In this document: positions 1,683 through 46,265 of the stretch, one piece after another
Numbering within the stretch: position 1 is the first letter of the stretch
How the letters are laid out: every line of letters starts with the position of its first letter
Source: a virus
Direction: 5' to 3' (one strand)
DNA length: 47,022 bases
IMG/VR virus record: IMGVR_UViG_3300031576_000084
Span: 1-47,022 of that record
Position numbers and translations under genes: made by a program
Notes under the pieces: model-generated
Told to the model about the DNA's origin: nothing
Databases searched by the model: none
What the model saw: only the letters and a program-made list of their open reading frames with translations

Positions 1683-1694
1683 AAAGGAGAACAG

Positions 1695-2101: not shown

Positions 2102-2103
2102 AG

Positions 2104-2112: not shown

Positions 2113-2124
2113 GGATGGATAAGA

Positions 2125-2810: not shown

Positions 2811-2813
2811 GTT

Positions 2814-3038: not shown

Positions 3039-3056
3039 GAAGAGGCTGAGCCTAGA

Positions 3057-3245
3057 ATGATAACAGTCACTATCATAGGTCACGGAAATCCTCCATCTTA
3101 CAAGTGTAAGGAGATTCTTAGGGCGGAGGTTGAGCTAGTTAGCTTCAGAACTCTGGATGGGTTCATTTACGATTACTTCGGACTGCCGTATGTCATTACC
3201 CATTATCCAGATAACCAGATCAAACTGTTCCAAGGGGAGCGTTAA
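3057..3245 (+). CDS. Hypothetical protein (62 aa)
   Basis: A short soluble protein with alternating hydrophobic residues, an early IIGHGNPP segment and a single Cys. ATG 3057 follows the previous stop by 18 bases; GAGG at about -15 is a weak ribosome site. The stop TAA is immediately followed by the next ATG (3246). No family is recognised. Confidence 0.55.
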   Translation: MITVTIIGHGNPPSYKCKEILRAEVELVSFRTLDGFIYDYFGLPYVITHYPDNQIKLFQGER

Positions 3246-3878
3246 ATGCCAGAGCGAAAACTTACGTTGGAAAGGGGGGATCAGGCAGAGATCTGGGCGG
3301 GCGGTCGAGGCTATCAGCCGCCTGCCCCCTCCGGCGGGCCAGTGCACGAGCTGCCGCCAGGCTGGAATACCGCACCACATGAGGAGCAGATCGTTATCCA
3401 TGAAGCAGCCGAACTACAGGAGGTTAGAAATCCAGGATCAAACGACACTCATATCCAGCCAGTGCCTAAACGGACAGACGACGAGTTGATCATCAGTGCT
3501 GTCCAGACTGAGATCGCTCGGCTGGAGATTCCAGAGGAGCTAGTTAACATCGACAAAGGCACCGCTCGATTCAGGGGCCATACCCTCCGTCTCGCCCCCA
3601 AGACCCAGGTGGCTATCCGCAAGCTGCTAGCTTGCGAGGTCGTTCTAAAGCTCAAGGAGGAGCAAAAACGTGTCATTGAATCAGTGCACAACAAAACACT
3701 GCAAGCACCCTCCGGTAGAGCCCGGCAGAACGTGCCAGCGGTGCCGAAACCGAAGAAGCCGGTGGGCAAGAACGCACAGAAGCGATCCCAGAAAGTGCGG
3801 AGAGTGCGGTTCAAAGTCGCCCCTATTGAACTTGAGACTGTGCAAAGACTGTCGAGCATTGAAGGTGGCAAAGCATGA
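3246..3878 (+). CDS. Hypothetical protein with basic C-terminus, overprinted by the HNH gene (210 aa)
   Basis: The N-terminal ~55 residues are Pro/Gly/Glu-rich and look disordered. The middle (about 75-140) is helical with Glu/Leu/Lys. The last ~65 residues are Lys/Arg/Val-rich and share 209 bases with the +1-shifted HNH gene at 3670. Because the zinc-finger reading of that DNA is clearly selected, the basic tail here may be an overprinted extension or a frame left open by chance. Start ATG directly follows the previous stop. The middle segment may be a nucleic-acid or HNH-associated protein; this is inference. Confidence 0.6.
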   Translation: MPERKLTLERGDQAEIWAGGRGYQPPAPSGGPVHELPPGWNTAPHEEQIVIHEAAELQEVRNPGSNDTHIQPVPKRTDDELIISAVQTEIARLEIPEELVNIDKGTARFRGHTLRLAPKTQVAIRKLLACEVVLKLKEEQKRVIESVHNKTLQAPSGRARQNVPAVPKPKKPVGKNAQKRSQKVRRVRFKVAPIELETVQRLSSIEGGKA

Positions 3879-4194
3879 ACCAAGCCATCAGCACGATATT
3901 GAGTTCCTGGCTAAGATGCTGGCTGCTTGCCATGATCCTGCTAGCTGCTGTTCTGCAACTGGAAGATCCTTACACGCGCTTTGGAAGATTGGAGACCAAC
4001 TCTCGGTCGATCGAATCAACCCGAGACGAGGATATGTTCCAGGTAATGTCCAACTGCTTTCACTTTACATCAACACTAAGAAGCAGACACTCAGACGGCC
4101 GCCAGCAGCTGCGGTCAATGCAGTGTTAAGGCGGCTTCAACATGCCACTGATGACAGACTCTCTAGCTCGAATGGAGCTGCTATCGCTGATTGA
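3670..4194 (+). CDS. Zinc-finger HNH-type homing endonuclease (174 aa)
   Basis: The N-terminal half carries CxxC pairs at residues 22/25, 43/46 and 58/61 plus C6/C11, forming zinc ribbons. The C-terminal half has a VDRINPRRGYVPGNVQ segment (113-128) followed by N and KK, typical of phage HNH/endonuclease VII-like proteins with a late Asp-Arg-Ile and Asn-Val. Such enzymes nick or cut DNA and are often mobile. The GTG start at 3670 has AAGGAGG nine bases upstream and lies inside the preceding ORF. Its end overlaps the next gene by 53 bases. The position just before the DNA polymerase gene is a common homing-endonuclease site. Confidence 0.75.
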   Translation: MSLNQCTTKHCKHPPVEPGRTCQRCRNRRSRWARTHRSDPRKCGECGSKSPLLNLRLCKDCRALKVAKHEPSHQHDIEFLAKMLAACHDPASCCSATGRSLHALWKIGDQLSVDRINPRRGYVPGNVQLLSLYINTKKQTLRRPPAAAVNAVLRRLQHATDDRLSSSNGAAIAD

Positions 4195-4447
4195 ACACAA
4201 AGCTCCATTTACCCCAGAACAGCTGGAGCGCTTACAAGAACTGCTGCCTCAGAGCCTGCATACATCACTAGACAAGCTGAAGTTCATTGAAATGACTCTG
4301 CCGCTGAGGAATCGTAAGTTCTTCAACGGACTTCAAGGCGACTATATCATCATTGATGAGCATGGCAGAGAGGTCTGGGCCAGTGCCTGGTGCCACAGCG
4401 CATATATCCAGACATGTCCCAGAATGCTGAAACGGAGGAGATCATAA
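4142..4447 (+). CDS. Hypothetical helical protein (101 aa)
   Basis: The N-terminal half is Leu/Glu-rich and helical; the C-terminal half has an IIIDEHGREVW strand segment and a basic end. It overlaps the HNH gene by 53 bases and the next gene by about 34. The start may be ATG 4142 or ATG 4151. No family is recognised. Confidence 0.6.
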   Translation: MPLMTDSLARMELLSLIEHKAPFTPEQLERLQELLPQSLHTSLDKLKFIEMTLPLRNRKFFNGLQGDYIIIDEHGREVWASAWCHSAYIQTCPRMLKRRRS

Positions 4448-4662
4448 ACGGACCTGCTACTAACGACTACTTCTATCCAACCATCTGCTCTCTTGTAGAT
4501 AGAGAAGCAGCCGCAGCTATCCACACACTAGCTCATTATGTAAGACCTACTGGTGACTGGGTGCTGGTTAGATCAGACCTGAACCATATCGACAGGGCTC
4601 TTGGGGAGATAGAAGCAATACTAAATCATAAATGGAATGGCCAGCTCTGGAGCAAGCGATGA
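4414..4662 (+). CDS. Hypothetical protein upstream of the polymerase (82 aa)
   Basis: A soluble helical protein with an RxDLNHIDRALGEIE segment. ATG 4414 is preferred over an upstream GTG (4390). Its TGA overlaps the polymerase ATG (ATGA, 4659-4662), so the two are translationally coupled. No recognised domain; a small polymerase accessory role is possible only by position. Confidence 0.6.
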   Translation: MSQNAETEEIINGPATNDYFYPTICSLVDREAAAAIHTLAHYVRPTGDWVLVRSDLNHIDRALGEIEAILNHKWNGQLWSKR

Positions 4663-6995
4663 GCACTCCAGGCTGTATGGTCGATGGCGACCCAGCTGCC
4701 CCAGTCCTGATTGTCGCTATGGCTCCGGGACGTGAGGAGCTACAGGCTGATAGCCCCCTAGTCGGGGGCTCGGGCAAGCTGCTGTGGAAGCAGCTACTCA
4801 AGAAAGCGGGAATCAATCGAGCGGACTGCTACATCATCAACACTATTGGCGAATGGCCTGAGGGCATTGATGGCAATCCAACTAAAGCGCAACTTCATAA
4901 GTGGTGGGATGCTTTTGACGAAGCCATGGCTCGTTCGACGGCAAAGGTGGCGCTACTTCTTGGCGGCGCTGCAATGTGGCGCTTTACCGGCATCGGCAAC
5001 TACCCCTCACCCATCGAGGACTGGCGAGGATACCTCGTCGCCCGAGACGAGTGCGGCCTGCTCACCAGAGTTCGAGAGGTTCAGGGAGTCTATAAGACCA
5101 GCAACTCCAAGCGCGGAATCAGAAAGGGAGACCACAAGCTAGAGAAGCACAAGGAAGCGGCGGCTGCACCCTGGCCGCATAGCGTGCTGTGGGCTATCCC
5201 GACCCTGCATCCAGCCGCAGTGTTGAGAACTGGGTACACCACCCTTCCCGTGCTTGCGGCCGATTGTGCACGTCTCGGGCGGGCGCTCAGGGGTGAGCTA
5301 GACATTAAGGAAGAGCCGTGGGCAACTAGCCCAGAAGTACATTATGCTTACACTCCTGACTACGGCCCAGCCGTGTTCGATATTGAGACGGGAGGCATCA
5401 ACAATGAGATCATCACTAGAATTGGTGCCACCTTTGAGGGCAGAGCATGGACCTCGCCCTGGGGAGATAGAGCCCGAGATGGGATCAAGCAGGCGCTGGG
5501 TAACGGGGACAGCGTAGCCTTCAACATTGCGTTCGATGCCCCCAGACTAGAGCTGAATGGTGTCAAGGTGCCAGAGCCCTGGTGGGATGTGATGCTGGCT
5601 GCAGCAGTGCTTAAGCCGGACCTTAAGAAATCCCTCAACTATGTGGCATCATTGTATCTAGATACCCAGCGCTGGAAGCATAAGTCAGAGGAGGACCCAG
5701 AGCAATATAACGCTAAGGATGTCATCAAAACCAAGCATCTATACCCAGTTCTTAAGGAGGAGCTTAAGCGAACTGGACAGCTGGACTTATTCGAGCGGCG
5801 GATGATGCCGACAGTGCCTACACTGGTGCGAATGACCCAGCGCGGCATTCCAGTGGACCGAGCAGTTAAGCAGCGGTGGGTCGAGCACCTAACGGTTGAG
5901 CAGTATCAGGCGCTGGATCAGTGGGAGCAGCTTGCGCCCGGCATCAAAACTGCTGGAAAGAACCTGTTGAGATTCCTTTACAGTGATCTTGGGCTGCCGA
6001 TTCAGTACAACAAGTACGGAGGAGAGACTAGCGAGCTGGCAGGGCTGAGAAAGCTGCTGATGTCCGAGCAACTAAGCGATCGGCAGCATAATACAATCGA
6101 GGCGCTGTTGAAGCTACGGACCATCCAAAAGGATCTCAGAACCTATGCGGAAATCGACATCGCCGGAGACGGATGCGTGCATCCAGGCTATCTGCCTGCT
6201 GGAAAAGACACTGACAGCTTCGGCAAAGGAATTGCTGGTACCGGCCGGATTACTGCCAGCAATCTCAATATTCAGAACCAGCCTCAAACCGCAAGGCTTA
6301 TGTATATCTCTCGCCGGAGAGATATGGTTCTACTGGAAGCCGACTTCAGCCAAATCGAAGCTCGGATCATAGCCCATCTGTCGGGCGATGATGTGCTCAA
6401 GACTGCCATTGAGGAAGGACTACATGAATCGAACCAGAGGGCGTTGGGGGTTGATAAGACACGCGCTAAGAATGGCTTCTATGGCTGGGCGTATGGGGCA
6501 GGCAAGCGAACTCTCAGCAAGACCTTCATCTCCAAAGGATATAACATCTCTGAGAAAGAGTGCGGAGCCCTGCTCGCAGGATTTGACAGCCGATTCGCCC
6601 GAGTCGCAGCCTGGCGGAGACGAGTCGCTGCAGAGGTCTCCAACTGCTACTATCTTACGAACGCATTTGGGCGGAGGCGGTATTTCATGGGAGGTGGTCG
6701 AGATGTCCCCAAGGGACTCGACTTTCACCCGCAGAGTTGTGCTGCTGACATTATGTGGTCAGTACTCCGACCACTTGAAGATGCCCTGCGAGGATTTGAT
6801 GCGGCTATTCTTGCGACAATACACGACAGCATCCTTGCCGAAGTCCGGCGAGATCTAGTGCCTGAGGTTGCCGAAGTTATGAATCACATCATGGAGCAGC
6901 CCTGGAACGAGCTAGATGGGCTGGTGATTCCGATCGAACTGAAGCAAGGAGAGAACTGGGGCAGCATGGAGATGCTCAGTGCCGTTAGAGCCTAA
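4659..6995 (+). CDS. Uracil-DNA glycosylase-like / family A DNA polymerase fusion (778 aa)
   Basis: Residues ~10-205 are a family 4/5 uracil-DNA glycosylase-like domain (AMAPGREE near 25, SGKLL, HPAAVLR at ~184). The four Fe-S cysteines of family 4 enzymes are not evident. Residues ~235-390 form a DEDD 3'-5' exonuclease (DIET at 241, then NIAFD). The rest is a PolA polymerase: motif A DFSQIEAR (562), motif B R...K....YG and motif C HDS (722-724). Most PolA enzymes read HDE, so the second acidic residue is Ser here. The same order of domains is known from the SPO1 polymerase family. ATG 4659 overlaps the previous stop and has GGAG upstream. It is the replicative polymerase of the phage. Confidence 0.92.
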   Translation: MSTPGCMVDGDPAAPVLIVAMAPGREELQADSPLVGGSGKLLWKQLLKKAGINRADCYIINTIGEWPEGIDGNPTKAQLHKWWDAFDEAMARSTAKVALLLGGAAMWRFTGIGNYPSPIEDWRGYLVARDECGLLTRVREVQGVYKTSNSKRGIRKGDHKLEKHKEAAAAPWPHSVLWAIPTLHPAAVLRTGYTTLPVLAADCARLGRALRGELDIKEEPWATSPEVHYAYTPDYGPAVFDIETGGINNEIITRIGATFEGRAWTSPWGDRARDGIKQALGNGDSVAFNIAFDAPRLELNGVKVPEPWWDVMLAAAVLKPDLKKSLNYVASLYLDTQRWKHKSEEDPEQYNAKDVIKTKHLYPVLKEELKRTGQLDLFERRMMPTVPTLVRMTQRGIPVDRAVKQRWVEHLTVEQYQALDQWEQLAPGIKTAGKNLLRFLYSDLGLPIQYNKYGGETSELAGLRKLLMSEQLSDRQHNTIEALLKLRTIQKDLRTYAEIDIAGDGCVHPGYLPAGKDTDSFGKGIAGTGRITASNLNIQNQPQTARLMYISRRRDMVLLEADFSQIEARIIAHLSGDDVLKTAIEEGLHESNQRALGVDKTRAKNGFYGWAYGAGKRTLSKTFISKGYNISEKECGALLAGFDSRFARVAAWRRRVAAEVSNCYYLTNAFGRRRYFMGGGRDVPKGLDFHPQSCAADIMWSVLRPLEDALRGFDAAILATIHDSILAEVRRDLVPEVAEVMNHIMEQPWNELDGLVIPIELKQGENWGSMEMLSAVRA

Positions 6996-20022: not shown

Positions 20023-21105
20023 TCAGGTAGTCACGTTGTATCCAACGCCGAGGGTATTGGGATGGAGCAGCTCGAACACTACTCCGGCATGGACGTATCC
20101 CTTCATCGCGTCACCGGACGGAGGAATAGAGTAATGTCGAAGCGGACGCCAGAACGCGCAGCGCGCCTTGGAACGGTCGTACAGGAAGTACGCTCCGCCA
20201 ATTCGCGCATTGGTGCTGGTTGCAGCAGTAGGAATAAACCGATCCACTAGGACTGCAATGCGGCCGAAGTCCGTCCGCATGAACTGAATATCAGCGGTGT
20301 ACTCCGTCGCACTAGCATCAGAGTGAACCTGCCGGATGACCGCAGGAACCGCAGCCATAGCAGAGGTGTTCGCAGGCTGGAATGTCGCCTGAGCAGCTTC
20401 GCCCAGAACATCGTTGGTAATGTCAGCCTTGACACCAGGGTCTACAGCCAGGGTATTCGGCTTGGCCCCTAGCTTGAACATTGCTTCGTGGAGTGTCAAG
20501 AACCGGCTACGGCTCCATGCGCCCGAGATGTTCATCGAGATCGCGTTAGTCGCAGCACCAGTACCCTGGGCTCCAGCAGTTGGGTCCGCAGTCGCAGACA
20601 GCTGCCAGTTACGGAACGACCCAGTACGGGCCGTGTCAGTAGCCGCAGTTGCTGACGCAGACACCACAGCAGTGCCAAGCGCAACAGCACGAGCATCAAT
20701 AGACTGCTCGGTCGCTAGAAGGAAGTTTTCCACCTGATGCTCATACTCATTCGAGACACCAGGGGCTCGCCCCTTCAACGAGTATTCAACGGCGTCCAGC
20801 GAGATTGCAAAGTCACGCCGGAACGTCTGAACTGCATTGTTGATGCGGGTTCTAGCAGTAAGAGCGCCAGACGCCCAATCATCACCTTCAACAGCACCAG
20901 CGGTGCTGGTGACGGGTAGAGCGTCGATCAGCCACTCGTGGACAAGTCCGTTGGAAGTGGTCTTGGGCATAGCCAAGAACACAGCAGCTTCCTTTTCCTT
21001 ATCCAGGCTGATTACTGCATCGAGTAGGTCTTCCCTATAGATTATACCAGCGCCTTCAGGAGCAGGGTATCTAGCACCAGTATCAAACCCACCAGGAAAT
21101 GCCAT
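20023..21105 (-). CDS. Major capsid protein, SU10/HK97-fold (360 aa)
   Basis: Segments such as HEWLIDALPVT, EGDDWASG, an RTRINNAVQ loop, then helical EHQVENFLLATE and a C-terminal beta region match the SU10 major head protein family of the HK97 fold. It directly follows the scaffold gene. It is the main shell protein. An internal TGGTATAAT (minus strand, 21041-21049) lies near its 5' end and is probably chance. Confidence 0.85.
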   Translation of the reverse strand: MAFPGGFDTGARYPAPEGAGIIYREDLLDAVISLDKEKEAAVFLAMPKTTSNGLVHEWLIDALPVTSTAGAVEGDDWASGALTARTRINNAVQTFRRDFAISLDAVEYSLKGRAPGVSNEYEHQVENFLLATEQSIDARAVALGTAVVSASATAATDTARTGSFRNWQLSATADPTAGAQGTGAATNAISMNISGAWSRSRFLTLHEAMFKLGAKPNTLAVDPGVKADITNDVLGEAAQATFQPANTSAMAAVPAVIRQVHSDASATEYTADIQFMRTDFGRIAVLVDRFIPTAATSTNARIGGAYFLYDRSKARCAFWRPLRHYSIPPSGDAMKGYVHAGVVFELLHPNTLGVGYNVTT

Positions 21106-21121
21106 TTAGTATTTCACCACC

Positions 21122-21928
21122 TTATTGGTTGTCAGGATCATACCCGATCTGCCTCATGGCATTCTGCACCGCACGCTCCACAGAAGTACCCTTGAAGCGC
21201 TCATTCAGGTAGGGGCCTGAATCTCCGAACTTCTGGAGATAAGTCGCGGCTTCAGCTTCCCGCTGCTGGTGGTCGGCACTCAGCACGGTTTCTGGGGCTC
21301 CGCGCCCCGCAGGAGTCCGTCCGCTAGGCAGTCCGGCAGGTAGACTTCTAGTTACCTTTGCCTGTTTGTCGATGAGCGTTTCTCTGATTGCGTACTTCCA
21401 TGCAGCCACAGGATTGGTCTGCACAAGGGCTTTGAACACTTCTCCGACCTCTTTGCTGTGCTCGTCGTCCTTCTTCATGAATTTACGAGCTTCAGACTTA
21501 TGCTGGTCGAAGTTTTCGATCTCGCTGGCAAGCTTTTCTTCGGCCTCGATTTGGGCCACAATCGGATTGAACAGCGTCCCAATTTTGCTGTCAACGATTG
21601 CGTTAGCTTTGGCCTCAAGTGCCTGCTCGATTGCTTCTGAGGAGATACCGAGGGACTCCAGCTCAGCAAACGGACTTGCCTGGTTGCCAGGCGCCTTTCC
21701 ACCGGCTGCAGCCATAACCATCGCTTCGAGCTGAGCCTTGGCTGTTCTTTCAGCATTCAAGGTCTCATGAACCTTTCCAAGCTCTGTTACAGCGTTGAAG
21801 TAGCTTTCGCTAGCCTTATTCCAGTCACCGCCAGCCTTCTTGTGCAGCGCATTGTTGCTGTAATCTGGCTGATCGGCTGGCTTCGGTCCAGCGGCTGCTT
21901 CTGATCCAGGATTCGGGTTGTCCGACAT
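21122..21928 (-). CDS. Capsid scaffolding protein (268 aa)
   Basis: The protein is Ala/Glu/Lys-rich: a disordered, Pro/Asn-rich N-terminus, then long amphipathic helices (about 40-170) and a basic C-terminus, as in scaffolds that co-assemble with HK97-fold capsids. AAGGAG precedes the ATG. The candidate promoter at 21981 should start the scaffold-capsid mRNA just upstream. Confidence 0.8.
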   Translation of the reverse strand: MSDNPNPGSEAAAGPKPADQPDYSNNALHKKAGGDWNKASESYFNAVTELGKVHETLNAERTAKAQLEAMVMAAAGGKAPGNQASPFAELESLGISSEAIEQALEAKANAIVDSKIGTLFNPIVAQIEAEEKLASEIENFDQHKSEARKFMKKDDEHSKEVGEVFKALVQTNPVAAWKYAIRETLIDKQAKVTRSLPAGLPSGRTPAGRGAPETVLSADHQQREAEAATYLQKFGDSGPYLNERFKGTSVERAVQNAMRQIGYDPDNQ

Positions 21929-21980
21929 CGTGGCTTACTCCTTGGCAGGTTGGCTGCCTTTAGGGTTGATTTACGACCTT

Positions 21981-21989
21981 ATTATAACA
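21981..21989 (-). promoter_or_regulatory. Extended -10 promoter TGTTATAAT (minus strand)
   Basis: TGT-TATAAT on the minus strand, followed by AAGGTCGT, sits in a 67-base gap before the scaffold gene. The following bases resemble those after the promoter at 28134 (GAGGTCGT). It has no clear -35 and would give a separate, strong scaffold-capsid transcript. Confidence 0.75.
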
Positions 21990-21995
21990 CATTAC

Positions 21996-22295
21996 TCAAT
22001 ACGGTCCTCCACCTTCTCCCATATCCTCAGACTTTGACGCCATATCAGCCTCAGCCTCTACTTGCTCGACAAGCAGATCCAGCCGCTTTCCCCATCCCTG
22101 CATCCACACAAACGACCAGATTCGGCCCTTTAGCGCCTCATCTGTAAGACGCTCCTCACCTTTAGGTCTGGTGCCATTTAACCAGTGGCCCTCAAGATTG
22201 CTAATCGCCATCCGAAGGGCTGGCTTAACAATCTCCCTCCAGCCATCTCCAGTCATCATGACCTTCATGGCCTGGATTCGTTCCTCTCTAGTCAT
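21996..22295 (-). CDS. Small head protein between portal and scaffold (99 aa)
   Basis: A helical protein rich in Glu, Met and Trp, with an acidic Gly-rich C-terminus. No domain is recognised. Small proteins at this position often connect portal and scaffold or complete the head. It starts ten bases after the portal gene. Confidence 0.65.
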   Translation of the reverse strand: MTREERIQAMKVMMTGDGWREIVKPALRMAISNLEGHWLNGTRPKGEERLTDEALKGRIWSFVWMQGWGKRLDLLVEQVEAEADMASKSEDMGEGGGPY

Positions 22296-22304
22296 ACTGC
22301 CTCC

Positions 22305-24206
22305 TTATTGCCCCATGTTAATCTGCAGTCCTGCTCCCAGCCCAGGCATCCCAGGCACCTCAGCACCGCTCTGCTGCCCTAGAATCCCCGGGGCTAGCTG
22401 CTCTAACATGTCGCCTTGGGGACCTATCTGCTGCTGTTCATTCATTAAGCCCCAGGCTGCCTGAGTGCTGGGCATGGTTACATTCATCATCTCCCGAGGG
22501 TTGAAGTCGAATGCCCGCCAGAACTTGTTGAAGAATGCTAGCCAGTTGGTGGTCTGGATAGCCATAGGATTTTGGCTCATTGCCTGCATTGCAGTAATCA
22601 GATCCTGGCGCTGCATCGTTTTTGACAGCATGTTGCTGGCCCCCACCGCACGAATCTTGTGGTCCATATTCAGGTCTGATAGATCGACCTGTTCCGTCTC
22701 GGGGGGCAGGGGTTGGCCAGTGTCAGGGTCCCAAATTGCAGCAGAGCCGATCAGGTTGACCATCTTAGGAACCGGCAAATATTGCCGGTTGAGAATCCTG
22801 AAGTCTTCGGCCAGCTTTTCGATCACCTGGCGCTCGAACAGTTTGGCCTCCAGGCCGAGTCGGGTTCGGGCCTGCTCCATGCGGCCCAGGAACTCTCTGG
22901 CAGTCTGGCGGTCGCCCGAGAGCATCCCTTGGATGGTGTCGCGCTGGACACCAGTACCCATGTCGATGTACCGGCTGATCGCCTCAACCTCATTAGCAAC
23001 AAGAGGATAAGCCTGCAGGTCCCACTGCATGGGCCGAATCATAGTATCGCCAGTATCGCCATGAACCTTAATGATGCGGCCCGGCCATAGAACCAGGTTC
23101 TGGGTGTCTAGCTCGGTCTGATCAGAGGCAAAGATGGCGGGCTGGAGGACTAGATCAAGCACATCCAGTCGGTTGGAGACCAGCTTGTTGGCGGAGGCCG
23201 CCATAGTTGCACCGATCTCAACCTTTCCCGGGCCGTGAAAGTGATGCATGTCCGGCATGGGGCAGTAGGTGCGGAAATGCTTGCGGAGCTGGCCGTAAGG
23301 GCATGGAATGTTGGAGATGGCAACTCGGCGGTTGGCAACAGTCATCTTGCGGAATCGGACACCATCTGGAGCCAGTTCAGCAGGGACCAGGCCGATTCGG
23401 GTGATCAGTTCAACAGGCTTGGAGTACTTGGTGGACTTCTCAGCCTTGTACTGGGTCCAGGACCGCCAGACGTGCTGGCGCTCGTACATATCAGTCATGG
23501 TTTGAGTGGAGGGGGGCTGGTTCTTTAGTTGGGCCAGGGCTTCCTCATCGTACTCTGGCTCCTCACCGCGCTGTTTTGAGTAGTAGTTCTGCTCCTCCAT
23601 ATCGTCTAGGTCTTTGTAGCATTTGCTGTGGACATAAAGCATCTTGTCGATGCTCTTTTTACCAGCCTGTGGAATAAAGTCTAGGATGTCCTTGTTTTCG
23701 ATGTCGGGGCCATCAAAGGTGGTTACGTCTACTTTGATGGGGTATTCGATACCCAGGGTCTTCTGCCGGTAGATTGTTGGCATGACGGTATGCCGCCAGC
23801 TGTACTCTAGGATTCCGGTGCCGTACACATCTGCGGACATCAGGAAGTCCAGCATCTTCTCAAATAGCTCGGCATCAAGGAACTGCTGGTTGATGAGGGA
23901 TTCGGTACGCTTGGCGGATGGCCCGGCGTCCGGGTCGATGGGGTCCATCTCGATGACCTGGGGGCCAGATAGTGCGATTGCGGCCTTGTTGGCTACATCA
24001 GACCAGCAGGCTGAGAACAGCAGCGGCAGCATGACCACATTCTTGAATGGCGGCTTGTTGCCAGTATAGACACACCGATAAAGGTTGTACCATTCCCGGA
24101 CCTTACGGAAGAACCGCTCATGGTACTGATAGCTTTCGATGTAGCTACCAATGACGGCATTGACAACCGTTTCGTTAGAGAGGCCTGCTGTCGCTAGAAA
24201 GCCCAT
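22305..24206 (-). CDS. Portal protein (633 aa)
   Basis: The N-terminal region (RFFRKVREWYNLYRCVYTGNKPP) and the wing/stem pattern with QFLDAELFEKMLDFLMSADVYGTGI, plus Gly-Gln-rich C-terminus, match podovirus portals that form the dodecamer at the DNA entry vertex. Its place between the terminase/exonuclease and scaffold genes is standard. The final ~50 residues are Gln/Pro/Met-rich and probably line the barrel. Confidence 0.8.
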   Translation of the reverse strand: MGFLATAGLSNETVVNAVIGSYIESYQYHERFFRKVREWYNLYRCVYTGNKPPFKNVVMLPLLFSACWSDVANKAAIALSGPQVIEMDPIDPDAGPSAKRTESLINQQFLDAELFEKMLDFLMSADVYGTGILEYSWRHTVMPTIYRQKTLGIEYPIKVDVTTFDGPDIENKDILDFIPQAGKKSIDKMLYVHSKCYKDLDDMEEQNYYSKQRGEEPEYDEEALAQLKNQPPSTQTMTDMYERQHVWRSWTQYKAEKSTKYSKPVELITRIGLVPAELAPDGVRFRKMTVANRRVAISNIPCPYGQLRKHFRTYCPMPDMHHFHGPGKVEIGATMAASANKLVSNRLDVLDLVLQPAIFASDQTELDTQNLVLWPGRIIKVHGDTGDTMIRPMQWDLQAYPLVANEVEAISRYIDMGTGVQRDTIQGMLSGDRQTAREFLGRMEQARTRLGLEAKLFERQVIEKLAEDFRILNRQYLPVPKMVNLIGSAAIWDPDTGQPLPPETEQVDLSDLNMDHKIRAVGASNMLSKTMQRQDLITAMQAMSQNPMAIQTTNWLAFFNKFWRAFDFNPREMMNVTMPSTQAAWGLMNEQQQIGPQGDMLEQLAPGILGQQSGAEVPGMPGLGAGLQINMGQ

Positions 24207-24754
24207 TAGACCTCGACCTCAATTCTAGATACTTCGAGAGGCTCGTACTCAGGTGTCATGATATAGCCGTTGGTATTGATCCAGTTGGCTAGTTTTCTGG
24301 TTAGATGCACATCCTGGATACAGTAGTCGATGAGCTTGCCCATCCGGCCGCTGCGATACAGGTTGGGGGCGCTCTCTCCAGTTTGCACCTTGGTGCCGAG
24401 CGCGAGCCGATCGCAGATTTCCGCGAGTCTATAGCCCTTTTGCCGGGAGGGAAGCGCCCGCCAGACTTCAGCTAAAATGTCGTACTGAATAGGATTGACG
24501 GTGTAGCCAGTGATAGACTCCATGATGGGGGTATCAAAGCTGATACTGTTAAAGCCCACTAGCAAATCTGCTTCATTCAGATGGGCCATTCCTTCCTCAA
24601 GGTCGTGCTCGTCGTATACATGGTACCGGCTGCTGGAGGTGTCGTACAAGCATAAACAGCTGACTCCAGCATCACCGCGCCTGACGGCTTCCCAGCCGCC
24701 GGAGACCTCCTCTACCGGCACAGCAATTTCCAGGTCGAACGTGATTACAGACAT
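24206..24754 (-). CDS. DEDD/DnaQ-like 3'-5' exonuclease (182 aa)
   Basis: FDLEI gives Asp7 and Glu9, GFNSISFDTP gives Asp74, and a Y-C-I-Q-D segment (144-148) supplies the last Asp, so the four metal ligands of a DEDD exonuclease are present. It may trim packaged or replicating DNA or RNA. ATG 24754 is chosen because the domain begins right there; a GTG at 24811 would add 19 residues overlapping the folded leader. Neither start has a normal ribosome site. It lies between terminase and portal, an unusual place for a replication nuclease. Confidence 0.75.
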   Translation of the reverse strand: MSVITFDLEIAVPVEEVSGGWEAVRRGDAGVSCLCLYDTSSSRYHVYDEHDLEEGMAHLNEADLLVGFNSISFDTPIMESITGYTVNPIQYDILAEVWRALPSRQKGYRLAEICDRLALGTKVQTGESAPNLYRSGRMGKLIDYCIQDVHLTRKLANWINTNGYIMTPEYEPLEVSRIEVEV

Positions 24755-24844: not shown

Positions 24845-26566
24845 TTAAGGCTGGACAGTATCCCAGCTTTCCGCCCAGAACTTCTCTACTTCATCCTGTT
24901 TTTTGGCAATTTCCTCAGCCGCTATATCGCCCAACCCGCCCGGCTTGAGCACCTCATCGAACGGATTTTGCTCCTGTTTGATGATTGCATCGGTGGTTAG
25001 ATAGACCGAGCGGTAAACATCCTTGTGGTAGCAGTCCGCCATAGCATCTGCAAAGTCGTTATGCTCCGTCAGGCCGATCTTGCTCATTTGGTCGATCAGC
25101 TCATCCAGGCCTTTCGAGTTCTCCAGTAGGATCATTCGACCGTCCAGCCACATTGCAGCCGCTTCGCGCAGGCGTTCGTCCTTTTCCTTGCGACCTCGGT
25201 TCAAGATATGGACTGTGGGCATTTGGACCTTGGCGGTCTGAAACAGGTTGCTGAGCCAAGCTTCCCAGATTCCAGGATGGCCACCGATCTCCTCCTCGTC
25301 AGTGATGCACATAACTCTAGCACACTTAGCTCTAGCGTTCTTTACAGACTCAATCAGCGCTCGGCCCATCTCATTAGTGTCCCAATCTTGGCTGGAATCT
25401 GCCCCCAGGAACACGCATTTGCCCTTCCCATCCATCATATGGCCGACCTGAGCGATGACGGTTAGATCTCCACGGGTTTTGCGGTCCAGTTTTTTGAAGG
25501 CCGTGTCTATATGGATGCTGACCCGGAGCTTCTTCATGCTGATTTCTGCGGCAGGCTTGATGAATGATCTGCACTTCTCCTCGGTCAGGATGTTATGAGG
25601 CGACCGAGTAGGGTTGTTGCGGACCTGGGCAAAGTATCGGACGGGATTACGCTGCTTGAATGATCGGATACGGGTAGGGCTCCAGATTCGGGGCATAACA
25701 TAGTGCCGCTGATCAGATTCCTTGTATGCATCGTCCTCTGCGTCCATGAAGAACACATGCCAGCCGCCATCCGGCTTGGGCTTAATTCCGGGCATGGCCA
25801 TGCCCGAGACGGTTTGTGCGCCCTCAACACGAATGCTTTTGCCAATATGATCTCCGTCGCCGTAGCGAGTGCCAGTAAGGACCCAGATAGCATCGGACTG
25901 GAATACTGGAATTAGCGAGTCTAGATGGTTATTGACTGTGATGAGCCAGTCGCTTTTTCGGCGCATCTGCTCGTAGGTGTTTGGGTCATCGAAGAAGCAG
26001 CCGTCTGGGTGGAGGCCCACCATGCCGGATTCTACTGCCCAGGTGCCAAAGCTTGCGTCTCGCCGGGTGAGGTTAGTTCGGGAGGCGGTGACGATGAAGT
26101 CCTTCTTCCAGGTACGGCCGGAGTGGCGCTGGACACCGTAGAGCCAGCTGAAGCGGCTGTAACGATCGTCGCCGGACAGGACTGCTTTGATGCCGTCTAG
26201 GACTTCACGTGCGCGGGTAGTCGTTTCGCAGCCTGCGTAGGTCGCCAGTTCGGGGTCGTGGAGATGAAGCCAGGCTTGTCCCGCCTGTGTGAACAGTGTT
26301 GTCTTGCCCCAGTCACGGGGAACCACGATTATCAGCTTGAGCTGATTGCCTTCGCCCTTGCGCCGCTGAGCCAGCCAGTTGAGCACGTGGTTTTGGTACC
26401 AGTCGCAAGCCGGTTTGTGGGTGGCTTCGTCTAGCCAGGGCCGTGGGCCAGCAGCGCCTTTAGGGTTGAAATCGTAGCCCCAGGCGAACCGAAAGAACCA
26501 CCAGAAGCTGTTCAGGCATTTATGCCGCCAGAATTCGCGCTCGGAGTTTCGGTCCCACTTCATCAT
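24845..26566 (-). CDS. Large terminase subunit, TerL (573 aa)
   Basis: A Walker A variant VVPRDWGKTT (81-90), Walker B FFDDP (191-195) and a C-terminal RNase H-like nuclease with DTAFKK, DEEE and DFADAMADCYH acidic positions show a full ATPase-nuclease packaging motor. Its length fits podovirus terminases. The ATG overlaps the previous stop by four bases. The protein cuts the concatemer and pumps DNA through the portal. Confidence 0.9.
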   Translation of the reverse strand: MMKWDRNSEREFWRHKCLNSFWWFFRFAWGYDFNPKGAAGPRPWLDEATHKPACDWYQNHVLNWLAQRRKGEGNQLKLIIVVPRDWGKTTLFTQAGQAWLHLHDPELATYAGCETTTRAREVLDGIKAVLSGDDRYSRFSWLYGVQRHSGRTWKKDFIVTASRTNLTRRDASFGTWAVESGMVGLHPDGCFFDDPNTYEQMRRKSDWLITVNNHLDSLIPVFQSDAIWVLTGTRYGDGDHIGKSIRVEGAQTVSGMAMPGIKPKPDGGWHVFFMDAEDDAYKESDQRHYVMPRIWSPTRIRSFKQRNPVRYFAQVRNNPTRSPHNILTEEKCRSFIKPAAEISMKKLRVSIHIDTAFKKLDRKTRGDLTVIAQVGHMMDGKGKCVFLGADSSQDWDTNEMGRALIESVKNARAKCARVMCITDEEEIGGHPGIWEAWLSNLFQTAKVQMPTVHILNRGRKEKDERLREAAAMWLDGRMILLENSKGLDELIDQMSKIGLTEHNDFADAMADCYHKDVYRSVYLTTDAIIKQEQNPFDEVLKPGGLGDIAAEEIAKKQDEVEKFWAESWDTVQP

Positions 26567-29162: not shown

Positions 29163-29364
29163 GTTTGACCTCCGTGCGGTTTTTGGAGATGAGATAGCCG
29201 ACATCACGAGATTCTACCAGACCGCCAAATTTTTGGGCGGTGGCGGGGTCTGAAAGGTTCCCTTCATCGCCGGAATTGGTAGCAGCATCAGTCCAGACGA
29301 TCTCCACCAGGGGTAGATTCTGCCAGGTCGGGCGGGGCTTCTTGGGCTTCTGGGGGCCATGCAA
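28996..29364 (-). CDS. Conserved small phage protein of the LVEIVW..IPRGWIKEI type (122 aa)
   Basis: The core LPLVEIVWTDA, then GYLISKN, ..SIF..DG and IPRGWIKEIIVL, belongs to a short phage family of unknown function, found in many tailed phages. The likely start is TTG 29364, with GAGGAGG nine bases before it. The family normally ends near IPRGxIKEI; here a 26-residue extension runs on into the glycosyltransferase gene and may be overprinting. The start overlaps the HTH gene end by 77 bases. Confidence 0.65.
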   Translation of the reverse strand: MHGPQKPKKPRPTWQNLPLVEIVWTDAATNSGDEGNLSDPATAQKFGGLVESRDVGYLISKNRTEVKLAVSIFPEDGTYRHSNTIPRGWIKEIIVLSRPPDQLHCPNDQSPDPGTPDLYPQT

Positions 29365-29800
29365 GGGCTGTTGCCTCCTCAAGCGCGTCTCGGCCTGCGG
29401 CCCGCAGGATCTGGGACAGGGCGGAGAGCATGGATTTAGTGTCGTTGGGTTGCGGAGGCCCCGAGAGGGCATCGCCCATCGTGCGGAGTTCGCGGAGTTC
29501 GCGGATGGCGGATACCCGGTCGGAGCCGTTCTGCTTGATGATGAATTCGAGTTCGGATTCGAGGTCAGCGAGGGGGCCGCCCCGGATGCGGGGCTTGAGA
29601 ACGGTGTGGTAGGTGCCGGGGCGCTCGATCAGGCGCCAGGGGATCTGCTCGGGGAGTAGGCGGCCGGAGTTGAGCAGGACGGTGACGCGGTTGTTGGTGT
29701 AGGCCCGGGTGGAGCCGCAGAGGCCGGTGAGTGCAGCAATGGATTTGGGCGGGTTAGAGGAAGCCATGACCTCTAGGATTCGCATGTCCATGGTGTTCAT
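29288..29800 (-). CDS. HTH DNA-binding protein, possible small terminase (170 aa)
   Basis: The N-terminal ~60 residues (DMRILEVMASSN, then SIAALTGLCG and a VTVLLNSGRL helix) have a winged-helix or HTH pattern, followed by helical, Glu-rich and Pro-rich C-terminal parts. It is the first gene of the virion arm, where TerS often lies; a transcription factor is an alternative. No ribosome site precedes the ATG, but a TACAAT -10 ends six bases upstream, so the mRNA should be leaderless. Confidence 0.55.
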   Translation of the reverse strand: MNTMDMRILEVMASSNPPKSIAALTGLCGSTRAYTNNRVTVLLNSGRLLPEQIPWRLIERPGTYHTVLKPRIRGGPLADLESELEFIIKQNGSDRVSAIRELRELRTMGDALSGPPQPNDTKSMLSALSQILRAAGRDALEEATALAWPPEAQEAPPDLAESTPGGDRLD

Positions 29801-29806: not shown

Positions 29807-29815
29807 ATTGTATCA
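29807..29815 (-). promoter_or_regulatory. Extended -10 promoter TGATACAAT, leaderless start
   Basis: TGA-TACAAT on the minus strand is followed by six bases and then the ATG of the HTH gene, so transcription would begin at or within the start codon. The same nonamer precedes the folded leader at 24827. A weak -35 (TTCAGG) lies 17 bases upstream. Confidence 0.65.
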
Positions 29816-29932
29816 GAGCGGGGGAAATACCTGAAATTTTTGGGGAATTTGGGGGACACAACAGGAGAGAGAAAGAGAGCAAGAAGGGGGAGCCCCGCCC
29901 CCTTCACGCCCTCAATCCCTGCATGAGCACCG

Positions 29933-29948
29933 TGGCACGATTCTTGCA
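29933..29948 (+). promoter_or_regulatory. Sigma54-type promoter 1 (TGGCACG-N4-TTGCA)
   Basis: TGGCACGATTCTTGCA is an exact match to the -24/-12 consensus, with GG and GC ten bases apart. It faces the rightward arm. The start would be about 12 bases after the GC. Confidence 0.75.
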
Positions 29949-29960
29949 TGGCCGCTCTAG

Positions 29961-29992
29961 TGCACAGACGTGCAGTGTACCTGCAGGTACAC
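29961..29992. promoter_or_regulatory. Two adjacent palindromes, candidate operators
   Basis: TGCAC-AGAC-GTGCA (29961-29974) is followed without gap by the perfect 18-bp palindrome GTGTACCTGCAGGTACAC (29975-29992). They lie between the two sigma54-like sites, so they could bind an activator or a repressor. No known regulator consensus is matched. Confidence 0.6.
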
Positions 29993-30008
29993 CTTGACGT
30001 TACGGGTA

Positions 30009-30030
30009 CCAGCGGAAAAATCCCCGCTGG
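30009..30030. promoter_or_regulatory. Inverted repeat overlapping sigma54 site 2
   Basis: CCAGCGG and CCGCTGG (30009-30015 and 30024-30030) flank an A-rich eight-base loop. The right arm covers the -24 GG of the second sigma54-like site, so a bound protein would hide it. Confidence 0.5.
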
Positions 30031-30043
30031 CATGGTTCTTGCA
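30028..30043 (+). promoter_or_regulatory. Sigma54-type promoter 2 (TGGCATG-N4-TTGCA)
   Basis: TGGCATGGTTCTTGCA differs from the consensus by one base and keeps GG-N10-GC. It is 95 bases downstream of site 1 and about 150 bases upstream of the first rightward gene. Confidence 0.7.
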
Positions 30044-30194: not shown

Positions 30195-30476
30195 ATGCCA
30201 CGGCTGATTGACGATGCAGTCCCCATGCCGGGGACCGTGCGCCAGTCCACGGGCGCCACCGCCGACCTTCGCAACCTCAAGGTCGGGCAGTCATTCCACA
30301 TCCCTGCAGCCGATCTCGCCCGGTTCAAGGACACCGGACACGCGGCCAAGGCAATGCAGTCAACTCTGTTCTATCCGGCCAAGGGCCTCCACATTCGGGT
30401 CCGGGTCCGCCCCGTGGACGAGTCCGATGCCCGCGGTTCCGGCATCCGGGTCTGGCGCATCGAAGACGCCGAGTAA
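30195..30476 (+). CDS. Small conserved phage protein, first gene of the rightward arm (93 aa)
   Basis: The middle has VGQSFHIP and the C-terminal part has a RVRVRPV strand and GIRVWRIE end, a pattern shared by many small phage proteins of unknown role (often annotated DUF7303). It is soluble and beta-rich. ATG 30195 has GGAGG nine bases upstream; an ORF extension further upstream has no ribosome site. It is directly followed by a strong terminator, so it is expressed as a short early mRNA. Confidence 0.75.
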   Translation: MPRLIDDAVPMPGTVRQSTGATADLRNLKVGQSFHIPAADLARFKDTGHAAKAMQSTLFYPAKGLHIRVRVRPVDESDARGSGIRVWRIEDAE

Positions 30477-31169: not shown

Positions 31170-31895
31170 ATGAATCGAACCATCGACCTCACCACGCTCC
31201 GCCTCAAGAGCGGCGGGCACACTGCCGAATCCGGCGACTTATGCATCATGGAAGCCACCGCCCGCCACCTCGGCCTACCTCATGCCGACCGAAAGGTAGA
31301 TGACGTTTGCCCACGCATCGAAGCGTACTGCCGGGGACTCAATGACTGGCTACTCGGCGGTGTCTTCACTGAGGCGCAAGAGGACGAGTTCTCTCGCCGA
31401 CTAGTCACCTTCATCCCTCGCCTGCCCTATACCAAGGGCACGCCTAAGCAGGACACGCAACGCCGATGGATGATTCAGGAAACGGCTACCGCTAACTTTG
31501 CCGCCTCGGCGATGCGAGCGGTTGGCCTCATCGAGCGCGCCGACCGCCTCTCGGCTTGCAGAATCACCGATGTGGCTGATCACGTTCATTGGGCTGCAGA
31601 GGCTGCAGAGGCTGTAGAGGCTGCGGAGGCTGCGTGGGCTGCGGGGGCTGCGTGGGCTGCGGAGGCTGCGTGGGCTGCGCGGGCTGCGCGGGCTGCGCGG
31701 GCTGCGGGGGCTGCGGGGGCTGCGTGGGCTGCGGGGGCTGCGTGGGCTGCGCGGGCTGCAGAGGCTGCGCAGGCTGCGCGGGCTGCGGAGGCTGCGCGGG
31801 CTGCGTGGGCTGCGGGGGCTAAAAAAACCCACCTCGCCAACGCTGCGCTGGACCTGCTGGACCGGCTCATCCACATAACAGAAAAGGAGGGCTAA
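31170..31895 (+). CDS. Ala/Trp-repeat protein with conserved N-terminal domain (241 aa)
   Basis: The N-terminal ~90 residues ([21 protein letters not shown], then HAD and a [13 protein letters not shown] segment) match a phage family with a Gly-His and Cys-(I/L)-Met-Glu-Ala core. After residue ~140 come about 75 residues of Ala-Ala-X repeats, where X is Trp, Glu, Gly, Arg or Gln, encoded by degenerate nonamers, then a short Leu-rich helix. The repeats should form a long Ala-rich helix with Trp on regular faces. The role is unknown. Confidence 0.7.
31591..31820 (+). repeat. Nonamer tandem repeat (GCTGCGNGG-type)
   Basis: About 25 nine-base units built on GGCTGCGNG with variable base 8 and some A changes. 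Being a multiple of three, copy-number changes keep the frame. All frames on both strands stay open here, which creates spurious ORFs. Confidence 0.9.
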
Positions 31896-36241: not shown

Positions 36242-36431
36242 TAGCATCTGGCTAGATTGGGGGGATCTTGGAGGTCCCCCAGAGTACTGCTTGTTCTGCG
36301 GTTTCCCCTTCGGGACCGATCTTAGATTGGCTGACCCTCTTCGAGTCGTCATTCCCCGCGCTGCTGAGCGAATTGAATCGCTTGAGGGTCCCGTCCATCT
36401 CTATTGTATCTACAAGTTCACAAGGAGGTGA
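36186..36431 (+). CDS. Small protein with CxxC (81 aa)
   Basis: CLFC (residues 35-38) and a later Cys in HLYCIYKF may bind zinc; the rest is acidic and aromatic. GGAG precedes ATG 36186. It overlaps the previous gene by 56 bases and ends four bases before the amidoligase ATG. Confidence 0.6.
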   Translation: MNSIYGDEHRVVLPEAANDSIWLDWGDLGGPPEYCLFCGFPFGTDLRLADPLRVVIPRAAERIESLEGPVHLYCIYKFTRR

Positions 36432-36435
36432 ACAC

Positions 36436-37404
36436 ATGGAGCGCTGTGATTTCTGTGGAGAAGTGGCGGAGCTGCTAGAAATGGCAGATGGGTATGGATG
36501 TAGAAGATGCTTTGATGGAAGCAGCTCGACCTGCATTATCTGCAGCCTGCCACTGGGAGAAGAATCTGATACAGCAGATCCCGCTACGGATCAACCGCTA
36601 TGCCATCCATGCTGGAACAATGCAAAGCCGCGGCCACTGGTAGAGAATGCTGTAGGTCGGTCAGTAGGATATGAGTTTGAATTTCTATTCCGAAGATCTG
36701 AGCTGTCGCTGGACCTGATTCAGGAGCTGCGGAACTACGGTAGTATGCGTTATGATGGCAGTCTGCGCGGCAATAATCATCATCCGGTAGCCATTGAGCT
36801 GGCAACACATTACGGCAGCGCGGAGCCACTATGGGCGATGCTACACTCGCTGTGTGATATTTTTGCACAGCAGTGGTTTGCACACAATGATTCGTGTGGG
36901 CTGCATCTGCATCTGGGGATGAATGGCTCGACTGAACTGGAGCGTAAGCGATTGTACCGATGGTGGCGGCTGCTGGAGCCTGCCATTGTACTGCTGGTTG
37001 AGCCCGCCCGATTGACCAATGCGTACTGCCGATCTGCCAGGCGTGTAAACTATAATGAAGATCGTTACGCAGCGCTGAATACAAGCTGCTATCGAAGCTC
37101 ACATGCTGCAAGAACCTTTGAGGTCAGACTGCATCACATGACCTTTGATGAGCAGATCATTCGGGGATGGACCCAGTTCCTGCTGTCGTTCTTCGATACC
37201 TTCACTGTCGTGCGATTGACGATAGCCTTGCGCCAGAACATCGCCCAGATGACGGTTCGAGAGAAGTTGATCTTTATGATGCAGCAGACCAAAGCGCCAC
37301 TATCGCTGTGGAAGTATGCTGTTAAAACAATGCGAACTAACTATAGTCAACGGGATCTGGATCTAATGCTGAGAACACCGGACTATTACCAGGAGGCAGC
37401 CTAA
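36436..37404 (+). CDS. Zinc-ribbon amidoligase (COOH-NH2 ligase, Amidoligase_2-like) (322 aa)
   Basis: Two N-terminal zinc ribbons (Cys 4/7/22/25 and 33/36/56/59) are followed by a GS-like amidoligase domain: GYEFEF (78-83), DGSL (107-110), HLHLG (157-161), the RRVNYNEDRYAALN region (about 202-215) and TFEVR (227-231). Those Glu, His and Arg residues bind metal-ATP and the carboxylate. The enzyme should form an amide or isopeptide bond using ammonia or an amine. AGGAGGTG precedes ATG 36436. Its stop overlaps the amidotransferase start (TAATG), suggesting a complex. Target unknown. Confidence 0.82.
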   Translation: MERCDFCGEVAELLEMADGYGCRRCFDGSSSTCIICSLPLGEESDTADPATDQPLCHPCWNNAKPRPLVENAVGRSVGYEFEFLFRRSELSLDLIQELRNYGSMRYDGSLRGNNHHPVAIELATHYGSAEPLWAMLHSLCDIFAQQWFAHNDSCGLHLHLGMNGSTELERKRLYRWWRLLEPAIVLLVEPARLTNAYCRSARRVNYNEDRYAALNTSCYRSSHAARTFEVRLHHMTFDEQIIRGWTQFLLSFFDTFTVVRLTIALRQNIAQMTVREKLIFMMQQTKAPLSLWKYAVKTMRTNYSQRDLDLMLRTPDYYQEAA

Positions 37405-38174
37405 TGTGCTCGATCGGTGGATTTGTCTCAAGTGTACCGCTGGACCCGATTCTATCTCGGCGGCTATGCACCGCACTGCTATGGTATGGGTCCGATCGAG
37501 GTATCCAGAGTTCAGGATGCTATATCAACAGCAAGCTGGCGAAGGCCGCTGTTACTCCGTATGACTTCATTGATACAGACGAATTCATTGGTCTGTTCGC
37601 TCGGCCCGCATCTATGGCCCTCACTCATACACGGACCCCTACGTCCGGAGGTCTGGGGGATGAGCAAGCCCAGCCGTTTGTACAAGCGGGGACCGCGGCA
37701 GTGCATAATGGCTGGATTATGAATACCAAGGAGCTGAAACAGAAATGGGGGATTACCAAGCCGTCTGGGGTCGATTCCGAACTGATTGTTAGTTTTCTGG
37801 CACGCAAAGGCCCACATAAGCTGGCGGATTTTCTAGAGTCCGCAGACGGCATGTCTGCGGTGGCTGCGATTCATAATGACAAGATGTACTTGATCCGTTC
37901 GGGTAATCCAACGTACTACTGTAGACTGATCATCGGTGAAGGCGAGTGCGTGACGGTGTTCGGCTCCGAAGGAGAAGCAGTCAAGAGCGCGCTGGCACAT
38001 ACCTGGCTGCTGCCCCAGAGCTATACAATTCAAGGGACCCAGCAGAACATACTGTTAGAAGCCCAGGCCCATAAGCTGCAGCCGATCTCCAGAAAGATCC
38101 GATCGTTCAGCTACAACTGCTATGGTCTTGACGATGATTACGGCTACATCAAGCGACTGGTGGACCACAGATGA
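37404..38174 (+). CDS. Class II glutamine amidotransferase (glutaminase) (256 aa)
   Basis: MCSIGG places the nucleophile Cys2 at the start after Met removal. HTRTPTSG (75-82), HNGWIMN (101-107) and DSELIV (124-129) are the glutamine-site motifs of the Ntn fold found in GlmS and asparagine synthetase. There is no second catalytic domain, so it should deliver ammonia to a partner, most simply the amidoligase encoded just before it with a one-base overlap. The length equals a complete class II domain. Confidence 0.85.
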   Translation: MCSIGGFVSSVPLDPILSRRLCTALLWYGSDRGIQSSGCYINSKLAKAAVTPYDFIDTDEFIGLFARPASMALTHTRTPTSGGLGDEQAQPFVQAGTAAVHNGWIMNTKELKQKWGITKPSGVDSELIVSFLARKGPHKLADFLESADGMSAVAAIHNDKMYLIRSGNPTYYCRLIIGEGECVTVFGSEGEAVKSALAHTWLLPQSYTIQGTQQNILLEAQAHKLQPISRKIRSFSYNCYGLDDDYGYIKRLVDHR

Positions 38175-39720: not shown

Positions 39721-39820
39721 CCGGGTGTGGCGGAACTGGCATACGCGCGAGCTTTAAACCCTCGTAACGCACTGCTCTCAAACAGCAGCGATGTGGGTTC
39801 GATTCCCACCACCCGGACCA
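39721..39820 (+). tRNA. tRNA-Leu(TAA), with encoded CCA
   Basis: Acceptor CCGGGTG pairs with CACCCGG, followed by A and CCA (39818-39820). The D arm has GCG/CGC, the anticodon stem is CGAG/CTCG plus a C-C mismatch, and the loop TTTAAAC gives anticodon TAA (39755-39757), which reads the leucine codon TTA. A long variable arm (CTGCT/AGCAG) and a GTGGG/CCCAC T arm fit class II tRNA-Leu. At 100 nt it is longer than usual. It is not a stop-codon suppressor. Confidence 0.9.
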
Positions 39821-44853: not shown

Positions 44854-45049
44854 GGCACTGCTGGTGCTGGCACTGATCGGATGGGGAGTATTGAGAATCT
44901 GGAATCTGTTGGTGGGTCGTAGGAGGGAGGCGATTGGCAAGCTAGAAGCATCGAAGGAGGATCTAGATATTGCACGGCTGAATAAACTGGCCCGGCAGCT
45001 CCGGGAGAAAGCCAAGAAGGAGGCGAAGAGTGGATCAGTTCAAAATTGA
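44828..45049 (+). CDS. Membrane protein with coiled tail (73 aa)
   Basis: One N-terminal helix (about 4-28) and a charged coil. Overlaps the primase end by 26 bases and the SPFH gene by 20. A partner of the SPFH protein is likely, as both are membrane-coil proteins. Confidence 0.65.
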   Translation: MRQILFAVEALLVLALIGWGVLRIWNLLVGRRREAIGKLEASKEDLDIARLNKLARQLREKAKKEAKSGSVQN

Positions 45050-46265
45050 CCCGAACAAGTTCAACCCGCGCAAGCTCATTGTTGTAGTTATAACTGCAGT
45101 TATGCTGGTGATTGTTGCAGCGTTCGGGTGTGGTAACATCTTAGAACCGCTCGATGCGGATGAGCAGATGGTGGTACAATCACCTGGCGGCAGGCTGATA
45201 ACATTCACCACCCCGGGCTGGAAGCCGCAGTGGTTCGGCCGGGTAACAAAGTACCGGAAGCGGGAGAACTTCGACTTTACATCCCCCATCAGAAATGGCG
45301 GTAAAGGGCTGGACAAGTCGATCGAGGTTCGATTCAACGATGCAGGACATGCGAAGATCTCTGGTACTATAGCTTACGAGATGCCATCCGACCATGCAAC
45401 CTTCATCAGGATGCACTCGCTGTATGGCAGCCAGGAGGCTGTCGAGCAAAAGCTAGTGGCACCGGCAGTCACCAAGGCTATCTATATGACGGGGCCGCTG
45501 ATGAGCAGTAAGGAGAGTTACGCAGACAGACGGAACGAGCTGCTTAGTCTGATTGACGATCAGATCAAGCATGGGGTGCTCCGAACCCGGTCATTCTCTA
45601 AGAAGGCTGCTGACGCGATCACTGGTCAGGAGAAGACGATTGCTGTGGTTGAGATTGTCCGAGGATCGGACGGCCGGGTCGAGCGAGAAGATGTGAGTCC
45701 TTTGTCGGAGTTCAACATCCGAACATTCAACCTTGCGATTGATGGCGTGCATTACAGCCCGGAGGTTGAAGCTCAAATCAAGGAACAGCAGCAGATGGTC
45801 ATGCAGGTCCAAACGTCTATGATGGAGGCGAAGCAGGCTGAGCAGCAGCGCATCACCACTGAGCAGAGCGGTATGGCAGCGGCTGCAAAGGCTAAGTGGG
45901 AGCAAGAGGTCATCAAAGCAACTGAGGTAACCTCAGCCGAAAAGGACAAAGCTGTTGCTGCGCTGGCTGTTCAGACGGCCGAGTTGAACAAGCGGAAGCT
46001 GATTCTGGATGGTGAAGGCGAGGCTGAAAAGAAGCGGCTGGCGATGGTGGCAAACGGAGCCCTAGAGCAGAAGATCGCAGCCTGGATAGAGGTCAACAAG
46101 GCATATGCTAAGGCCATTGCTGAGTATCAGGGCAACTGGGTGCCGACCACTGTGCTTGGTGGTGGAGCCAGCCAGAACAATGGAGCCCAGAATCTGGTGG
46201 ATATACTTACCGCTAAGACAGCCAAGGATCTGGCGCTAGACGTAAGCAACAAGAAGCAGCCGTAG
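45030..46265 (+). CDS. SPFH / band-7 (prohibitin-like) membrane protein (411 aa)
   Basis: A helix at about 16-34 anchors the protein; the following SPFH domain shows MVVQSPGGRLITFTTPGWKPQ and a long Ala/Glu/Gln coil (about 245-345) as in stomatin/HflK families. Such proteins form rings at the inner membrane. Phage members may protect phage proteins from FtsH-type proteolysis or shape the membrane. A lipobox-like AFGC follows the helix. The GTG start overlaps the previous gene. Confidence 0.8.
   Translation: MDQFKIDPNKFNPRKLIVVVITAVMLVIVAAFGCGNILEPLDADEQMVVQSPGGRLITFTTPGWKPQWFGRVTKYRKRENFDFTSPIRNGGKGLDKSIEVRFNDAGHAKISGTIAYEMPSDHATFIRMHSLYGSQEAVEQKLVAPAVTKAIYMTGPLMSSKESYADRRNELLSLIDDQIKHGVLRTRSFSKKAADAITGQEKTIAVVEIVRGSDGRVEREDVSPLSEFNIRTFNLAIDGVHYSPEVEAQIKEQQQMVMQVQTSMMEAKQAEQQRITTEQSGMAAAAKAKWEQEVIKATEVTSAEKDKAVAALAVQTAELNKRKLILDGEGEAEKKRLAMVANGALEQKIAAWIEVNKAYAKAIAEYQGNWVPTTVLGGGASQNNGAQNLVDILTAKTAKDLALDVSNKKQP

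Follow-up and report, generated by a model that had tools for sequence, protein, structure and literature searches.

The window, a 47,022-nucleotide stretch that makes up the whole 47-kb IMG/VR virus record IMGVR_UViG_3300031576_000084 (53.8% GC), carries two tandem sigma54-type sites, P1 and P2. We consider it very likely that these are real promoters for the host sigma54 RNA polymerase, which drive the arm of the genome not devoted to packaging and need a host activator.

Two exact sigma54-type sites

P1 (TGGCACGATTCTTGCA, 29,933–29,948, + strand) reads TGGCACG-ATTC-TTGCA, the exact consensus, and P2 (TGGCATGGTTCTTGCA, 30,028–30,043, + strand) reads TGGCATG-GTTC-TTGCA, again an exact match to TGGCAYG-N4-TTGCW; each carries the -24 GG and the -12 GC within that pattern, with a spacer of N4. 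They have the 17-mer TGGCAYGRTTCTTGCAT in common, which is stricter than the consensus. The initial annotation had described tandem GG-N10-GC sites at 29,933 and 30,028, both aimed at the rightward arm, and their positions, strand and aim are all borne out: the first rightward gene begins at 30,195, 247 bp from P1 and 152 bp from P2 across non-coding DNA. Transcription is predicted to start 12 bases after the GC, at A29959 (P1) and A30054 (P2), both purines, which would give P2 a leader of 141 bases. Counted against the promoter reading is the base at -1 of P1, a G, whereas viral sites prefer T.

No other exact match to TGGCAYG-N4-TTGCW occurs on either strand of the contig, and a Markov model expects 0.03–0.05 in the whole window; under the same kind of model, the 394-bp intergenic region between the divergent genes would carry two or more on its + strand with a probability of 1.7e-8. 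A scan against background had been proposed in the initial annotation. The exact pair stands far above the Markov expectation, while a loose scan of the window allowing two mismatches found 10 sites against 8.3 expected, which is not significant. Because the loose scan is only at background, the case for sigma54 depends on the exactness of the pair and on where it lies.

Control region and genome arms

P1 and P2 lie in the 394-bp divergent control region and point away from the terminase-portal-capsid arm. The first rightward gene (30,195–30,476, +) encodes a 93-aa protein matching DUF7303 (E 2e-6) and phrog_7597, and is preceded by a GGAGG ribosome-binding-like sequence. The first leftward gene (29,288–29,800, -) opens the packaging arm and encodes a possible winged-helix protein, the hint being a weak, below-cut-off HTH_24 match on the homologue in relative L123; from its position, the product is probably the small terminase subunit or a regulator. 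The same arm holds genes for the large terminase subunit (24,845–26,566, -; phrog_38, E 8e-29), a portal or head-tail adaptor protein (22,305–24,206, -; phrog_332 and phrog_1216) and the major head protein (20,023–21,105, -; phrog_1328). A Sak4-like gene and the DNA polymerase A gene (4,632–6,995, +; phrog_17, E 4e-86) occupy 441–6,995 on the strand of the putatively sigma54-driven arm, and would be its continuation if the genome is circularly permuted.

The window has some further features. The non-packaging arm encodes an amidoligase (PF12224) next to a glutamine amidotransferase (PF13522) at 36,268–38,174. A protein with a long Ala-rich repeat tail is encoded at 31,170–31,895, and a Band 7/SPFH-domain protein (PF01145) in this phage genome at 45,030–46,265. 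A tRNA gene of 97 bases (39,721–39,817; Rfam, 55 bits) was missed by ARAGORN and overlaps the start of an ORF.

On the leftward side of the control region, a -10-like TACAAT (29,807–29,812, -) lies 6 bases before the start codon of the first leftward gene, predicting a leaderless transcript. The only rightward sigma70-like match in the 394-bp gap scores 9/12. A 7-bp GC-rich hairpin (30,009–30,030, +), with a 3' arm that shares bases with the -24 element of P2, has no clear T run and would make a poor terminator.

Relatives of the window

About ten relatives came from alignment searches with the portal protein and TerL; among them, L132 and L133 alone cover the control region. A single-protein TerL search yielded no viral relative, and a portal search of bacterial genomes yielded no prophage, hence no host is assigned. 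In the closest relative, L123 (86% portal identity), 61 bases precede the copy of the leftward gene and fall just short of the region homologous to P1 and P2. The homologous region of L132 (61% portal identity) carries the exact sites TGGCACGCTCCTTGCT, facing right, and TGGCACGGCGCTTGCT, facing left, along with a third that has one mismatch; L133 (60% portal identity) spans the control region and has no sigma54 site there. Comparison with relatives, offered in the initial annotation as a check, thus showed sites in L132 and none in L133; judged from these two control regions, conservation appears real but incomplete. On the leftward side, a -10-like sequence lies exactly 6 bases before the start codon in the window, L123 and L132 (TACAAT) and in L133 (TATACT), a pattern that predicts a conserved leaderless transcript of the first leftward gene across the four phages.

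P1 and P2 might instead be remnants or chance matches that the window phage does not use, as the lack of sites in L133 and the presence of only two in the window would allow. We find this quite improbable, given the P of about 2e-8 for position and strand, on which a chance origin of the pair was rejected, and the separate exact sites in L132. Two points count against the preferred reading, that they are working promoters: L133 has no site, and the best named matches of the window DNA polymerase are mycobacteriophages, at about 24% identity. The rpoN gene is missing from nearly all Actinomycetota (PMC12316311), and in a host without rpoN the sigma54-promoter reading fails.

Tandem sites in uncultured viruses

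A pattern scan of IMG/VR found two exact sites 81–111 bp apart in at least 120 stretches of viral DNA; control scans with an N5 spacer and with the reversed pattern each returned 2 stretches (complete counts). Among the matches listed (120 loci), the N4 spacer accounts for 505 sites, against 0–1 for spacers of 2, 3, 5, 6 or 7. Positions that were not part of the search are also biased among the matches listed: T occupies -1 in 71% and G occupies -2 in 51%, A is favored at -5 to -3, the spacer tends to R-T-T-C, and W follows TTGCW. The extended sigma54 consensus, reportedly given by Barrios in 1999, is mrNrYTGGCACG-N4-TTGCWNNw. That the flanks outside the search pattern fit this extended consensus is the strongest argument for sigma54 itself as the reader of the sites.

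Sorting the matches listed by shared proteins gives a marine podovirus-like group of 66 members, a second group of 10, several small ones and 30 singletons. The window has only weak protein hits to these 120, so the arrangement is not simply that of one lineage. This bears on whether the sites bind some other protein, such as a terminase subunit, a repressor or a replication protein, their likeness to sigma54 sites being fortuitous. The sites do adjoin a terS-like gene, near which pac or cos sites often lie, and some arrays hold both orientations. The motif, its sigma54-like flanks and its invariant N4 nevertheless recur in phage groups sharing few or no proteins, which argues against the site of a lineage-specific protein, and we regard such a reader as very unlikely. 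Recognition by sigma54 is the reading retained.

Triple arrays occur in 42 of the 120 viral loci among the matches listed, whereas bacterial genomes totalling 257 Gb yielded 5 stretches with one. Seventeen annotated phage genomes, distant relatives that include phages infecting Pelagibacter, roseobacters, Vibrio, rhizobia and Aeromonas, have 1 site in total. In the matches listed (L003–L122), the distance between same-strand neighbors peaks at 25–28, 43, 46–47 and 57 bp, and that between convergent sites at 36; this may reflect helical phasing, or the room that one polymerase takes up on each site. One record (G050, about 20,200–24,300; L116 and L146, 200–4,300) has a repeated block with sets of sigma54 sites at 46- and 92-bp spacing, which may represent repeated small RNAs or gene cassettes.

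Direction of the sites

Among the matches listed, 76 arrays could be scored for their setting, and 51 of these occupy a gap between divergent genes. In 49 marine loci among these matches, 177 sites face away from TerS/TerL while 14 face it; the loci are kin to one another and the counts are not independent events. Sites point only away in 39 loci and only toward in none. The opposite side has its own signal: a sigma70-like promoter (at least 10/12), typically TTGACT-N17-TATAAT or TATACT, points toward TerS in 25 of 30 non-redundant marine loci, and away in 13 of 30. By sequence the window follows the logic of the marine group, with sigma54-type sites away from the packaging arm and a sigma70-like element toward it. 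In G015, five sigma54 sites lie 36–171 bp before start codons, one pair being before an SSB-like gene. In many marine loci, a run rich in G, such as GGGGGAGGGG, lies between the sigma54 sites and terS, and similar to these is a G-rich run at 29,880–29,905 of the window that flanks P1.

Directional bias is something that promoters need and decoys do not, and it disfavors a symmetric decoy, in which the sites mainly trap host polymerase in closed complexes and so damp host stress, pilus or flagellar genes. Several observations would suit such a sponge. No activator is encoded (see below), and some viral arrays have 5–9 sites, many of them 25–28 bp apart (about one footprint), or are of mixed orientation. 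Four exact sites in a Methylococcaceae MAG, within what resembles a satellite, are likewise directed against the neighboring genes; these lie on one strand, 40–41 bp apart (L138, 5,281–5,403), at the edge of an apparent integrated P4-like satellite (integrase, primase) and beside an IHF-like gene. The 177:14 bias away from the terminase arm, the G015 sites placed 36–94 bp before start codons, and the poor sponge that the two-site element of the window would make all weigh the other way, and we hold the decoy explanation to be unlikely. Promoter function accounts for the direction of the sites, and is the reading followed here.

A probable host activator

The sigma54 polymerase cannot open DNA without an AAA+ enhancer-binding protein. 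The initial annotation had seen no such activator among the encoded proteins and had concluded that the host would have to provide one, and both points are upheld. No enhancer-binding protein in the window is above the Pfam cut-off (PF00158 scores 11.6 bits at best, the cut-off being 20.2), and none is above it in a further 45 records, which are mostly fragments. With the polymerase dependent on this protein and no phage gene for it found, the activator has to come from the host.

Two elements between P1 and P2 could each be a candidate for activator binding. One is the dyad TGCAC-N4-GTGCA (29,961–29,974), a possible regulator site; the other is the perfect 18-bp palindrome GTGTACCTGCAGGTACAC (29,975–29,992), one of two such palindromes in the window, with its center about -70 from the P2 start, which makes it a candidate activator (UAS) site. 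The palindrome is absent from the control regions of L132 and L133 as read. The dyad, found once in the window, occurs three times in the control region of L133 (3129, 3192 and 3253), itself without sigma54 sites, and is possibly an operator or packaging site. In the marine loci, the dyads and 8-mers that turned up between the array and terS were sigma70 elements and the G-rich run, and no clear activator site was among them.

We favor the following scheme. Host sigma54 RNA polymerase would bind P1 and P2, and the two would jointly drive the non-packaging arm on the right. The terminase-portal-capsid arm on the left would start from a sigma70-type leaderless promoter. The sigma54 holoenzyme would stay closed until a host AAA+ enhancer-binding protein opened the promoters, such that the rightward arm would depend on rpoN and would be expressed at times when that host regulator is active.

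Comparison with known systems

The usual picture of phage transcription is one of sigma70 and phage polymerases, sigma appropriation and phage sigma factors, with sigma54 as a rare exception. In PMC5053324, phage use of sigma54 is described as rare but not unprecedented, the Pseudomonas aeruginosa phage YuA (NC_010116) being reported to have a strict need for host sigma54 (Ceyssens 2008, cited there). This precedent shows that phage use of sigma54 is possible; together with the tandem exact sites in at least 120 viral stretches, it also speaks against the wording of the initial annotation, which had called sigma54 promoters very rare in phages. The YuA record has three promoters on structural genes annotated '-24/-12 consensus sequence, high activity', of which the fragments match the consensus at 8/12 at best, and the 50 kb read contain no exact site. 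YuA resembles the case proposed for the window in that it uses host sigma54 and has sigma70 promoters in other parts of its genome. Its promoters are however single, poor matches to the consensus and directed to structural genes, whereas the sites of the window are exact, tandem and directed to the non-packaging arm, facing away from the terminase-portal-capsid genes.

Bacterial sigma54 promoters share with the window sites the TGGCAYG-N4-TTGCW pattern, the GG-N10-GC spacing and the purine at the predicted start; bacterial genomes differ in that tight arrays are rare, as the low count of triple arrays illustrates. The uncultured marine podovirus-like group (66 loci listed, e.g. L012 and L024) is like the window in having tandem sites in a divergent region, directed away from terS/terL, and a sigma70 promoter on the terminase side, and unlike it in protein content and in having mostly 2–7 sites rather than 2. 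A search of the open-licence literature, with little coverage of subscription journals, turned up no paper on phages with arrays of sigma54 sites. Sigma54 use by a phage is already known; provisionally, what is new here is the exactness of the sites, their tandem arrays and the arm that they target.

Implications

Sigma54 sites recur in viral genomes with clear statistical support, and their geometry is consistent across unrelated phages. On balance we favor the view that a large, unrecognized class of uncultured tailed phages, spanning several unrelated lineages, has its genome split by sigma factor: the packaging arm would use sigma70, and the opposite arm 2–9 consensus sigma54 promoters and a host enhancer-binding protein. 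Placing half of a phage genome under host transcription of the stress or nitrogen type looks like an overlooked but recurrent strategy.

The tandem-site signature predicts hosts that bear rpoN. Because a sigma54 promoter stays silent until it is activated, phages of this kind would sense the state of the host, be it nitrogen, envelope stress or another signal. If this is true, phage development would be tied to host physiology without a phage-encoded regulator, which bears on the timing of productive infection and perhaps on why such phages are uncultured.
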